64,000 bases of DNA from Thiomicrorhabdus sp. zzn3 (GTDB taxonomy: Bacteria; Pseudomonadota; Gammaproteobacteria; Thiomicrospirales; Thiomicrospiraceae). The notes beneath the pieces are model-generated. The model was not told where the DNA came from. It did not search any database and saw only the letters and a list, made by a program, of their open reading frames with translations. Positions 838 to 64,000 of the stretch are shown in pieces. A program made the translations under genes and the position numbers. The stretch is from contig NZ_JARUQS010000001.1 in assembly GCF_029767755.1 (NCBI RefSeq), positions 1,426,001 through 1,490,000 on the forward strand, given 5' to 3'. Positions within the stretch are counted from its first letter, which is position 1. Each line of letters begins with the position of its first letter.

Positions 838-1000
838 ATTCAAAAATAAAACCTAAAAAGCCATTAAATTGTTAGCAATTAGGTTATCGATTCACAGTGA
901 GAACAAAAAGCGAGCTTTACTCAAAAGAGTGTTGCGCTTTCAAGAACAATGAAATGTAACAGGCCTGGTGAAATGGAATAATAAGACAGGTGTAAACAAA

Positions 1001-1025
1001 AAAAGCCGGGCGAGGCCCGGCTTTT
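1001..1025 (-). terminator. Rho-independent terminator after gloA
   Basis: Perfect 11-base stem AAAAGCCGGGC with a GAG loop and a run of T on the reverse strand, 25 bases past the gloA stop codon. The stem also has T residues on the forward strand side, so it could stop transcription both ways. A CAGGCCTG octamer (960-967) lies just beyond it. Confidence 0.85.
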
Positions 1026-1049
1026 TAAACGCTAAAATGAATACAGGAT

Positions 1050-1445
1050 TTAACCGCGGTCGTGACCTTCGCCTATGAATTCGATCTGGTATCCGTCCGG
1101 ATCTTCGGCAAACGCGATAATGGTAGTGCCGGCGTTCATCGGACCCGCTTCGCGGATGATCTTACCGCCCTGCTGTTTAACCGCTTCCGCCGCCTCATAA
1201 ACATCCGGCACCTCAACCGCAATATGACCGTAACCGGTTCCCAAGTCGTAAGAATCGACGCCCCAGTTGTAGGTCAGTTCCAGCACGGTGTTTTCCTCTT
1301 CATTGCCGTACCCCAGAAACGCTAAGGTAAATTCACCCTGTGGGTAATCTTTACGACGCAACAGTTTCATGCCCAACACCTTGGTGTAAAACTCGATCGA
1401 CTTTTCCAAATCGCCGACACGCAACATCGTATGCAGTAATCTCAT
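1050..1445 (-). CDS. gloA: Lactoylglutathione lyase (glyoxalase I)
   Basis: 131 residues, close to the usual bacterial length of about 135. It isomerises the hemithioacetal of methylglyoxal and glutathione to S-lactoylglutathione in the cytoplasm. The four metal ligands fall at the same numbers as in E. coli GloA: His5 (RLLHTML), Glu56 (VLELTYNWG), His74 (GYGHIAVEV) and Glu122 (YQIEFI). The absence of the insert typical of Zn-dependent enzymes suggests the Ni/Co-type class, but that is inference. It appears to be a single-gene unit ending at the hairpin at 1001-1025. Confidence 0.95.
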
Positions 1446-1538
1446 TACTCTATTCCCTATTCATTTGCATTATTTAAAACAGATTTTAACAAGCACAACC
1501 ACAAACTCAACAGGCCTGTTCAAAACCCGACTCTATTC

Positions 1539-1724
1539 TCAATTTGATTCTCTGTTCTCTGGATTATGCTGCTTCAACAATACCAATACCAGCCAGGCAA
1601 ACGGGCCAAACAACAATCCCATCGTCCCCCAAAACACTGCAGGTCGTCCTTTTCTCTGTGCCGTTCTGTGGCACAGATAAGCGCTCAACAACCCGATCAA
1701 CACACTCAACCATAACGCGATCAT
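1539..1724 (-). CDS. Small two-helix membrane protein, translationally coupled
   Basis: About 61 residues starting [17 protein letters not shown], a short basic loop (HRTAQRKGRPAVFW), then a second helix GTMGLLFGPFAWLVLVLL and a charged tail. The ATG overlaps the TGA of the upstream MFS gene as ATGA, so it is probably translated by coupling and belongs to the aroC-MFS transcript. I do not recognise a named family. The pattern of a basic loop followed by a glycine-proline second helix is common in small conserved inner-membrane proteins. Short length and lack of an own ribosome site keep confidence moderate. Confidence 0.55.
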   Translation of the reverse strand: MIALWLSVLIGLLSAYLCHRTAQRKGRPAVFWGTMGLLFGPFAWLVLVLLKQHNPENRESN

Positions 1725-2917
1725 ACTCGTACTCCCCGCCAGGCGAACCACCACGCAACCAACACCGCCAATGCGCTCAAGCCATACGCCAATTCGGCAT
1801 GCCCCCAACTCCAGGCGTAACCGGCGCTCAGCATCCCCACCGCGCCGCCTAAACCGTGACTGCTCGCCGCGAAGATCGCCTGGCCTTTACCGTGATGGCG
1901 GCCGCGGAAAAAATGATCGATCAGATGAATCGCCGCGGCATGGAACAGGCCGAAACTCGCCGCGTGCAGGGTTTGCGCCACCAGCATCCAACCGAGATGA
2001 TCTGCCAGATAAGCGTTCATCAGCCAACGAATCAATGTCAACACGATGCTCAGCAAAATCAGAAAGCGTACCGAATAGGCCTGGAACAGGCGCGACATAT
2101 ACAGAAACACGCCGATTTCCGCGATGACGCCCAGCGCCCACAACCAGGCAATAGATGTTTTATCGTAGCCCAACTCGCTCAGGTGAATGGTAAAAAAAGC
2201 ATAGTAGGTGCCGTGCGACAACTGCACCAAAAAACTGACCAGCAACAAATGCCACACCGCGGGCTGACGCACAATCTGCATAAAACCACTGTCGTCTTCA
2301 TGCACAATGCGCCGACCACGGTCACGCACCAGAAAAGTGGTCAACCAAACCAGGGTCAGCAACGCAAACAGATCCCACGGCAACACGCCGACGCCAACCT
2401 GTTCGATCTGCCAGCCGATCAGCACCACCGCTGCAATAAATCCGACCGAACCCCACAGGCGAATTTCGCCGTAACGATGTTTTTCGTCGCCCAGGCAACC
2501 GAAGGTATAGGATTCAAACTGCGGCAGCGAAGCATGCCAGAAAAAACTGAAAAACAACACCGTCAGCAGCAGCGGCCAGTAGCTTGCAAAACTTACCAGG
2601 CCTATGCCGCTGACAACCGTCAACCCCGTCGCCAAACGCACCCATTTGATCGGCAAACCGGAACGGTCCGACAACCAGCCCCAGACATTGGGCGCAATCA
2701 CTTTGGTGGCCATCAGCACCCCCAACAGTTGACCGATTTCGACCGGAGAAAAACTCAGTGACTGGAAATAGAGCCCCAGGTACGGCAACAGCGCGCCGAG
2801 GACGGAAAAATAGAAAAAGTAATGAATGGACAGCTTGGTGTAGGCTGTCCGGTACGAACACGGCTGTTCCGCCTGTGAAGAACCCGTTTTTAAAGAATCT
2901 TCTTTATTCGCCGACAT
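1721..2917 (-). CDS. MFS transporter, HcaT / phenylpropionate-permease-like
   Basis: About 398 residues with twelve hydrophobic segments. The opening ([30 protein letters not shown]) and the segment [13 protein letters not shown] are characteristic of the MFS_1-like / PPP family that includes HcaT and LacY relatives. The substrate cannot be inferred. I chose the ATG at 2917, which begins 14 bases inside the 3' end of aroC, so translation is likely coupled to aroC; the longer reading frame upstream lies wholly in aroC. Its stop overlaps the start of the small membrane protein. It is an inner-membrane protein. Confidence 0.8.
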
Positions 2918-61732: not shown

Positions 61733-61813
61733 TACTCTATTCCTTAAATATGTTTAAAGTTAGTTTTGAATTCTGTAAGTGGCGGCCGCTGATTCGCTTG
61801 ACGACCGCCGGAC

Positions 61814-61847
61814 GGATAATTCGCCGCAAAGTGTGCGGGAATTATCC
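61814..61847. repeat. Hairpin in the ilvH-ilvC spacer
   Basis: GGATAATTC-G-CCGCA pairs with TGCGG-GAATTATCC around AAGTG, a 14-pair stem with one bulge. A second weaker pair GGCGG/CCGCC lies just beside it (61781-61809). Position is in the 124-base spacer between two genes of one operon, so it may slow or process the transcript, or be a mobile palindrome. Confidence 0.5.
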
Positions 61848-61856
61848 ATTATGCCT

Positions 61857-62348
61857 TTATAGGTGTAAACACTTTTCTCCGCGCATGACACCGACGGTTC
61901 CGGAACGGACCGTTTCCAAAATCAGGCCTGGATCAATGGCGTCAATAAAGGCATCCAGCTTTTTGCTTTCCCCCACCATCTGCACCGTGTAGGTGGTAGA
62001 GGTGACATCGATGATGTCACCACGGAAAATATCCGCCAAACGCTTATATTCTTCGCGCATGTCACCGGTCGCAGACAGTTTGATCAGCATCAGTTCGCGC
62101 TCGATGTGCGCCCCTTCGGTCAGATCCAAAACCTTAACCACGTCGATCAGACGGTTCAGGTGTTTGACAATCTGCTCGATTTGCTGCTCGGTTCCACTCG
62201 TTACCAGCGTTAAACGGGACAATGACTCGTCTTCAGTTGGCGCGACCGTTAACGCTTGAATGTTATAGCCGCGTGCCGAAAACAGGCCGGCAACACGAGA
62301 CAAGGCACCCGATTCGTTTTCCATTAACATTGAAATCACATGTTTCAT
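61857..62348 (-). CDS. ilvH: Acetolactate synthase small subunit
   Basis: 163 residues. ACT-domain opening MKHVISMLMENESGALSRVAGLFSARGYNIQALTVAPTED and the C-terminal domain with RGDIIDVTSTTYTVQMVGES. It binds valine and regulates the large subunit. Spaced 10 bases after ilvB. Confidence 0.96.
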   Translation of the reverse strand: MKHVISMLMENESGALSRVAGLFSARGYNIQALTVAPTEDESLSRLTLVTSGTEQQIEQIVKHLNRLIDVVKVLDLTEGAHIERELMLIKLSATGDMREEYKRLADIFRGDIIDVTSTTYTVQMVGESKKLDAFIDAIDPGLILETVRSGTVGVMRGEKCLHL

Positions 62349-62358
62349 CGGACCCCCT

Positions 62359-64000
62359 CTATACCAAAATCATTTCATTCAAACCGGCACCGGCAGGAAT
62401 CATTGGATACACATTTTCCTGCTGATCGGTAATGATGTCGATAAATACGAAGCGATCTTTGTACTTGTCTGAAAACGCTTCGGCCAGGTCTTCTTTCAGG
62501 GTCTTTGGATTATCGATACGAATCCCCACATGCCCGTAAGATTCCGCCAACTTGACGAAGTCCGGCAGCGACTCCATATAAGACATCGAATAACGACGCT
62601 CATAGAAGAACTCCTGCCACTGACGCACCATGCCTAAGAAACCGTTGTTCAAGCACACCACTTTGACCGGCAAGCCATATTGCAAACAGGTGGAAAGCTC
62701 TTGAATATTCATTTGAATCGAACCTTCCCCGGTCACACACACGACCGTCGCGTCAGGATGCGCCATTTGCGCGCCCATGGCTGCTGGCAGACCAAAGCCC
62801 ATGGTCCCCAAACCACCGGAGTTAAGCCAACGACGCGGTTTATTGAACTTATAGTACTGCGCCGCATACATCTGGTGCTGACCGACGTCGGATGCGACAT
62901 ACGCCTCGCCGTTAGTCACTTCCCACAAGGCTTCAACCGCGGCTTGCGGTTTGATCTTGGAGCCCAAAGTGTCATAGCGTAAACAATTGGTTGCACGCCA
63001 CTCTTCGATTTGCTGCCACCAATCGGCCAACGCTTGCTCATCGATTTTCTGCTTGGTTTTATCCAAAATCGAGATCATCTCGGCCAGCACTTTCTTCACC
63101 GGCCCGACGATCGGAATATCCACAATCACGTTTTTAGAGATCGACGCCGGATCGATATCCACATGAATGATCTTGGCATCCGGACAGAACTTCTCCAAAT
63201 TTCCGGTGACACGGTCATCAAAACGCGCGCCAATGGCAATGATCACATCGCTGTGATGCATCGACAAGTTGGCTTCGTAGGTACCGTGCATACCCAACAT
63301 CCCGACAAACTGCTTGTCTTCAGCCGGATACGAGCCTAATCCCATCAGAGTATTGGTAATCGGAAAGCCTAATTTACGAGTCAGTTCTGTCAACTCTTCT
63401 GAAGCATCTCCCAACACAACGCCGCCACCGGTATACAGGATCGGGCGCTTGGCTGAAAGCATCAATTCCACCGCTTTTTTGATCTGACCGCTATGACCCT
63501 TTGTCACAGGTAGATAGGAGCGCATCTCAACTTCTTGTGGATATTCATAGGTGCTTTTGGCGTTTTGGACATCTTTCGGAATGTCAACGACCACCGGGCC
63601 GGGTCGGCCGGTGGTGGCAATATGGAACGCTTTTTTGAGCGTCGCAGCCAACTCGTTAACATCCTTGACCAAGAAGTTGTGTTTGACGATTGGTCTTGTG
63701 ATCCCAACGGTATCAATCTCCTGGAATGCGTCCAAACCGATCAGGCCTGTTGGCACCTGACCGGTAATGCATACCATTGGAATTGAGTCCATATAGGCCG
63801 TCGCAATACCGGTGACGGCATTGGTCGCCCCCGGACCGGAAGTCACAAGAACCACTCCTGGCTTACCTGTAGAGCGCGCATAGCCGTCCGCAGCGTGAAC
63901 TGCAGCTTGTTCGTGACGCACCAAAATATGGTTTAATTTTTTAGCGTCCGTATCCAGGGCATCGTAGATAGGCAGAACCGCCCCTCCAGGATAACCCCAT
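62359..64000 (-). CDS. ilvB: Acetolactate synthase large subunit, 5' end beyond window
   Basis: The frame is open to the window edge: the reverse strand at 64000 reads into [14 protein letters not shown], the usual start of the ThDP PYR domain, so the true start is outside. Visible parts: [20 protein letters not shown] (ThDP/catalytic Glu), the FAD-binding central domain, and the ThDP motif [33 protein letters not shown]. It joins two pyruvates, or pyruvate with 2-oxobutyrate, in valine/leucine/isoleucine synthesis. One CAGGCCTG is in the gene (63742). Confidence 0.96.

Follow-up and report, generated by a model that had tools for sequence, protein, structure and literature searches.

What is the octamer CAGGCCTG doing in 23 exact copies within one 64,000-nucleotide stretch of the Thiomicrorhabdus sp. 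zzn3 genome (contig NZ_JARUQS010000001.1, positions 1,426,001 to 1,490,000; hereafter the window)? A preliminary description had supposed a genome-wide signal of one of four kinds: an uptake sequence, the site of a chromosome-organising protein, a methylation or restriction target under selection, or a self-spreading palindrome. We propose, at a probability of roughly 0.48, that the octamer belongs to a recognition tag shared across the family and split into dialects, most likely a DNA uptake sequence (DUS). Among the four options an uptake sequence appears to fit the genomic patterns best, whereas the methylation or restriction target and the self-spreading palindrome are disfavoured.

The claimed excess is real. 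The copies run from 960 to 63749 (the end of the last one), and 100 dinucleotide shuffles give a mean of 0.66 and a maximum of 4. Under an order-2 model the octamer is the most over-represented 8-mer of the window, and the runner-up among palindromic octamers has 5 copies. The window density of 0.36 per kb is typical of the genome (2.37 Mb, six contigs), which holds 859 copies against 21 of a reversed-word control, as expected of the genome-wide signal supposed earlier. By mechanical open reading frame (ORF) calls made in this analysis, 11 window copies are intergenic and 12 coding; in a 464-kb sample (the window together with 20 stretches of contig C1, and nothing from C2-C6) the figures are 76 and 83 of 159, in agreement with the earlier estimate that about half lie between genes. 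Density in the sample is 1.67 per kb in intergenic and 0.20 per kb in coding sequence. Codon use alone was rejected as the cause because of this roughly 8-fold difference; the excess also holds in the genome-wide count that had been called for and in the counts of some relatives. Coding copies do occupy all three frames, as first described, but unevenly (5/6/1 in the window, 40/39/4 in the sample), as would be expected were the octamer admitted only where the protein sequence allows it.

What alters the picture most is invisible from the window alone, namely the dialects found among relatives. Within the genus (our genome, G000, and 31 relatives), 15 of 32 genomes carry 236-1173 copies of CAGGCCTG and the other 17 carry 3-74. 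Three other genera of the family hold 409, 840 and 668 copies, and two others only 7 and 10. In each of these 18 bearers the ratio to the reversed control is at least 24-fold. The 21 genomes from other families of the class have 0-222 copies with controls of 0-91 and ratios up to about 7, for example 108 against 15 (G049), 14 against 2 (G040) and 10 against 0 (G052). When the low-count genomes were scanned for k-mers (19 kb of G004 and about 30-100 kb of each of the other 16), some proved to be low only through a different spelling. The dialect of G023 is CCGGCCGG, with 1217 copies genome-wide. Among named genomes, Lon of the window matched Thiomicrorhabdus cannonii HH3 and three metagenome-assembled relatives at 81-85%. 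In G020, which we equate with T. cannonii, the motif is the non-palindromic AAACTCAACAGGCCGGGT, with an A-tract on one side; its core AACAGGCCGG is found genome-wide in 659 copies there and 383 in G004, where only 8 sites were modelled. The remaining 14 genus genomes show no dominant repeat of this kind in about 30-100 kb each, from which a sparse or non-palindromic one could escape.

GGCC is common to all spellings, that is, to three core spellings and the flank variants of one of them. The letters that follow the octamer differ among its bearers (TTC, GTAA or GTTA): G000 and G017 have TTCAGTTT, G025 has TTCATTTT, G030 and G008 have GTAA and then A/T, G033 has GTTAAATTT (20 sites) and G035 has GT only. 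Flanks were modelled in the genomes named here, the other bearers being counted by octamer. The half-site TTACCGG of G023 equals TTACCAGG of G030 minus A. For our own genome a shared flank pattern was correctly noticed before: the extended consensus is approximately AAACYGAACAGGCCTGTTCRGTTT, or, with both orientations pooled, CAGGCCTG followed by TTCRGTTT with bases 10-12 rich in A/T. The mutated copy at 46151-46174, said to keep its flank, does so. T stands at the sixth base from the axis in 86% of intergenic and 64% of coding flanks, and in the 464-kb sample the flank preferences of coding copies are weaker than those of intergenic ones but kept. Positions about 10-12 bp from the axis are rich in A/T in most dialects examined.

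In a tree of PheT from 30 genus genomes (the fragments of G005 and G009 omitted, other genera outside the tree), G004 pairs with G020 (100/100), and the two nest among the bearers G000, G017 and G025 (97/94). Motif-less genomes fall in several clades, one of which, with six members, joins the bearers G027 and G006 (100/98). Because three other genera also hold bearers, the simplest reading would be that the motif is old, was lost repeatedly and changed its spelling at least twice.

Alignment of window sites to syntenic stretches of relatives captured such a change site by site. None of 11 aligned sites keeps CAGGCCTG in G020, and 7 of the 11 carry CAGGCCGG there on either strand (22998, 23023, 26881, 31479, 40805, 50147 and 61923, with a gap at 23023). 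At aligned sites of G017 and G025, CAGGCCGG is found in 0 of 14 and 1 of 10, and exact CAGGCCTG is kept in 7 of 14 and 5 of 10. In the reverse direction, 15 G020 copies of CAGGCCGG were aligned to the window: 5 lie on CAGGCCTG, 1 on the mutated copy (46159), 1 on the same octamer, and the remaining 8 on different sequence. Motif sites turn over between G020 and the window. When coding window copies are compared with orthologs without the exact octamer, 26 of 29 alignments are gap-free and the 3 gapped ones all concern the pheT site 40805. Respelling proceeds mostly by point substitution in place. Exact conservation seems to exceed controls in G017 and G025, albeit on small numbers: in G025, 4 of 9 coding sites (1.10 expected) and 1 of 1 intergenic; in G017, 3 of 9 coding sites intact (4 of 9 by aligned bases; 1.31 expected) and 4 of 5 intergenic sites kept against a rate of 0.20. 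In G020 the exact octamer is conserved in 0 of 8 coding and 0 of 3 intergenic sites.

These alignments bear directly on the self-spreading palindrome. Repetitive extragenic palindromes (REP) and REPIN elements are palindromic, occur in hundreds of copies and are biased to intergenic regions, all of which this motif shares. A REP/REPIN-like element inserted by a transposase would be expected to leave gaps, and the 26 gap-free alignments of coding copies, with gaps confined to one site in pheT, make such an origin very improbable; copies here would instead come mostly from substitutions in place, codons included.

Intergenic copies sit shortly behind genes, often as stem-loops. Their density in G000 is 3.36 per kb in convergent, 1.64 in tandem and 0.50 in divergent regions, with a median of 34 bp to the nearest stop codon (32-51 bp across G000, G017, G025, G030, G008 and G023). 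A re-pairing test of flanks, which left out G017, G025, G033 and intergenic G035 for having too few sites, gave excess self-complementarity for intergenic copies (z 1.7 in G000, 2.8 in G030, 2.9 in G008 and 2.1 in G023) and none for coding copies (z -0.7, -0.7, -0.2 and -0.3 in the same order, and -1.2 in G035). Copies also occur repeatedly as pairs, at a core-to-core spacing of 24-25 bp in G000, G030, G008, G023 and G020 and of 22 and 26 bp in G017 and G025. Those of G020 are inverted, with a stem of at least 17 bp, an A-tract before it and a T-tract after it, and look like bidirectional terminators. A rival reading takes the whole motif for a family of terminator hairpins spread by selection for transcription termination, for which the convergent concentration, the proximity to stops, the self-complementarity and the inverted pairs with their tracts all speak. 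As the sole cause we consider this improbable: 83 of 159 copies of the sample lie inside genes, where a terminator would be damaging and no excess of self-complementarity is seen, the respelling of coding copies into dialects is left unexplained, and in G033 the 8 intergenic sites have a median of 209 bp to the stop and no preference for convergent regions.

A dimeric chromosomal protein, such as a nucleoid or chromosome organiser, whose binding specificity drifted between species, is a more serious rival, though we regard it as unlikely. It would explain palindromy and sharp core exactness, as well as the correlation between flank halves within sites in G000 (0.21, P 0.0065), G030 (0.41, 0 of 2000 shuffles) and G008 (0.25, P 0.03), and spacing of copies in G000 is more even than random (P 0.0025). 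However, the half correlation is absent in G023 (-0.12) and elsewhere could stem from intergenic hairpins, and the G020 dialect is asymmetric, with its A-tract on one side. Moreover, a housekeeping organiser would hardly tolerate near-absence from 14 genus genomes and the respelling of hundreds of sites. Slightly more doubtful still is a palindrome made and kept by methyltransferase-linked repair bias (the Elhai model), in the manner of the highly iterated palindromes (HIP) of cyanobacteria, the enzyme belonging to a class outside those searched. HIP1 and the alternate HIPs are likewise iterated octamer palindromes, patchy within a lineage, which relatives swap or lose (PMC4390886, in excerpt), and sharp exactness and the sites of G035 (37 of 39 coding) agree with this model. 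According to the same excerpt (Elhai 2015), HIPs go with matching methyltransferases. We searched PF00145, PF01555 and PF02086 in our genome and 57 relatives; among the 16 bearing family genomes with a completeness of at least 95%, 7 (G014, G017, G021, G023, G025, G027 and G033) have no match to any of the three at E 0.001, in a search that took in neither Type I enzymes (PF02384), other methylase families nor Vsr. The single PF01555 match of our genome lies in a 1125-aa frame; a frame of much the same length (1123 aa) in motif-less G026 also holds one. C5, N4/N6 and D12 methyltransferases were therefore rejected as a common determinant, as no searched family tracks the motif, and a methylation or restriction target is disfavoured, none of the three families being common to the bearing genomes. 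Extended flanks, 8-fold intergenic enrichment with a terminator layout, and a non-palindromic dialect are also not among the HIP features given in the excerpted source.

The uptake-sequence reading accommodates more of these observations. As far as the cited excerpts go, the DUS of Neisseriaceae and the uptake signal sequences (USS) of Pasteurellaceae are likewise present in hundreds of dispersed copies, with family-limited dialects around a constant short core, with copies also in genes, with inverted pairs in terminator layout (reported there as terminators) and with motif-less relatives; USS also have A/T tracts beside the core (further excerpts: PMC12616744, PMC3630211, PMC10295459, PMC3446811). 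Genome-wide over-representation and dialects around a constant core, both features by which uptake sequences are recognised, are found here. Dialects with a constant core, respelling in place, the enrichment between genes and its stem-loop layout, the at times asymmetric motif with its A/T tract and the family limits would together fit uptake sequences better than the other classes considered. We hypothesize that the type IV pilus competence system includes a surface DNA receptor with a preference for tagged DNA, and that kin DNA would thereby be taken up and recombined in. Such biased replacement would keep copies exact and would drag the whole set along when the receptor's preference drifts; intergenic copies would double as terminators, and loss of the receptor would lead to decay of the tag and to motif-less clades. 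With rather more reserve, we conjecture that a third bacterial family may have independently evolved a genome-wide uptake language, palindromic and read by a putative receptor, and that at hundreds of sites one clade may have exchanged its palindromic spelling for a one-sided one, a dialect change still readable at orthologous positions.

Several observations weigh against an uptake sequence, and palindromy, sharp exactness and the missing receptor keep the motif short of membership in that class. Most dialects are palindromic, whereas known DUS and USS are not, and the core is GGCC rather than CTG or GCGG, in a different family (Thiomicrorhabdus and kin). A hidden asymmetry of the palindromic dialects was not supported, as no clear gain beyond re-pairing controls was seen: in cross-validation a model mixing orientations exceeded the symmetric one by 24.6 log units in G000, with re-paired controls ranging from -7.2 to 24.8, and gave no gain in G030 (-11.4), G008 (-18.0), G035 (-7.8) and G023 (-9.0). 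A hint of asymmetry comes from G035, which lies above its five controls and where the flanks of 24 of 39 sites start with C/G (17.5 expected). The core is sharply exact, with little excess of single-mismatch neighbours. One-mismatch octamers are near expectation in G030 and G023 (at most about 2.6-fold, on small counts). In G000 they reach up to 3-fold, compared with a 17-fold excess of the exact octamer, and in G020 an excess is also seen for three edge variants of the 10-mer, with 4-5 copies each. Spacing in G030, G008 and G023 is not more even than random. The uptake sequences of Pasteurellaceae are biased to gene ends (PMC2346458, in excerpt), unlike this motif: coding copies summed by gene fifths over six genomes number 43/41/49/40/27, lowest at the 3' end.

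The competence genes bear on both sides. We found comEC in 19 of 21 bearers, the two without it being fragmented drafts, and the open frame in our genome has 867 aa. It is also present in 12 of 14 motif-less genus genomes, so the machinery does not track the motif, and the G020 match (C1:88273-89076) lies in a short frame of 594 aa, most family genomes having about 830-960 aa. A ComP-type receptor, of the neisserial kind (ComP_DUS, PF16732), does not score over cut-off in any of 37 family genomes; the predicted Pasteurellaceae receptor is, in the cited excerpt, a pilin other than ComP. GspH/FimT gave weak matches in three motif-less genomes only (G010, G019 and G026), in a search insensitive enough to have also missed what are probably the GspH genes of bearers. 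Prepilins are present in 23 of 23 genomes searched. A four-pilin cluster was considered as the receptor locus and dropped, being, by its flanking long ORFs, probably type II secretion: the frames before and after it have the order and sizes of gspF and gspK, as judged without a family search. In the literature searched, natural transformation was found only for organisms other than these genera or as a reference title, and among the matches listed, judged by titles and abstract openings, none appears to be a paper on the motif in this group.

Viral sequences were also inspected. In IMG/VR our own 19-mer has 0 matches, and TTACCAGGCCTGGTAA and ACTCAACAGGCCGGGT occur in 4 and 6 contigs with one site each. 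An 8.3-kb IMG/VR contig stretch (L280, 41% GC) holds CAGGCCTG four times, a density close to that of bearing hosts, and is possibly a virus or provirus carrying the dialect.

Table 1. Exact copies of CAGGCCTG in the window and one mutated copy (46151..46174), with strand given as '.'
Feature	Position	Strand	Context
CAGGCCTG	960..967	.	intergenic
CAGGCCTG	1511..1518	.	intergenic; flanks AACAGGCCTGTTC
CAGGCCTG	4533..4540	.	3' end of ORF 4089-4541
CAGGCCTG	8115..8122	.	inside ORF 5360-10399
CAGGCCTG	10493..10500	.	intergenic
CAGGCCTG	17465..17472	.	intergenic; first of pair, spacing 24 bp
CAGGCCTG	17489..17496	.	intergenic; second of 24-bp pair; then TTCAGTTTT
CAGGCCTG	22998..23005	.	convergent intergenic region after lon; first of 25-bp pair; G020 ortholog ACAGGCCGGG
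CAGGCCTG	23023..23030	.	second of 25-bp pair; G020 CCGGCCTG (dialect, other strand), gapped alignment
CAGGCCTG	25917..25924	.	ORF 25431-28001 (YbbP-like permease); gap-free against motif-less ortholog
CAGGCCTG	26755..26762	.	inside ORF 25431-28001
CAGGCCTG	26881..26888	.	ORF 25431-28001; kept in G017, G030, G008; G020 CCGGCCTG
CAGGCCTG	28024..28031	.	convergent intergenic region; long stem, -22.8 kcal/mol
CAGGCCTG	31479..31486	.	between tRNA-Pro and 3' end of ORF 31571-33037; G020 GCAGGCCGGG
CAGGCCTG	32030..32037	.	inside ORF 31571-33037; kept in G025
CAGGCCTG	40805..40812	.	inside pheT; kept in G025; G020 ACAGGCCGGG
mutated copy AAACTGAGCAGGCCCGCTCAGTTT	46151..46174	.	core altered, 9-bp complementary arms intact; G020 aligns CAGGCCGG
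CAGGCCTG	50147..50154	.	ORF 49860-50477; kept in G017 and G025; G020 AACAGGCCGGGT
CAGGCCTG	50795..50802	.	inside ORF 50479-51507
CAGGCCTG	55200..55207	.	ORF 54155-55402; same in G017
CAGGCCTG	58056..58063	.	intergenic; long stem, -16.1 kcal/mol
CAGGCCTG	59979..59986	.	intergenic
CAGGCCTG	61923..61930	.	ORF 61857-62348; G020 TCAGGCCGGC
CAGGCCTG	63742..63749	.	ORF 62359-63999, which runs past window end

The ORF at 5360-10399 encodes a 1679-aa protein with a Ser/Thr kinase-like N-terminus, a TOMM kinase/cyclase-like middle and a C-terminal GGDEF domain. The words TGGGGG/CCCCCA are raised in the window (36 against 10 expected). Poly-G/C tracts are many in all six genomes of one motif-less clade (G001, G011, G016, G022, G028 and G029; L147-L149, L153-L166), with 44 copies of CCCCCCCC in 47 kb of G016 against 0.9 expected; they may be phase-variable tracts, a regulatory motif or a sequencing artefact. 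Motif-less G024 (L074-L078) has raised non-palindromic words, for instance CGTCAATGTC (15 against 0.16 expected), reflecting either a repeat protein or another signal. The k-mer scan of G019 was dominated by 96 repeats at 60-bp steps on contig C1 (L064, from about 9920), probably a large array of clustered regularly interspaced short palindromic repeats (CRISPR).

Should the motif instead be bound by a protein, or be a mark of the HIP kind for which no methyltransferase is known, it would need explaining just as much, since hundreds of sites per genome are respelled in place by some agent. Uptake sequences are described in only two families in the cited excerpts. If the uptake-sequence reading is true, sulfur oxidisers would supply a third case, one in which a single genus shows several spellings and losses, and the evolution of uptake specificity would become directly testable through the protein whose change tracks the spelling.

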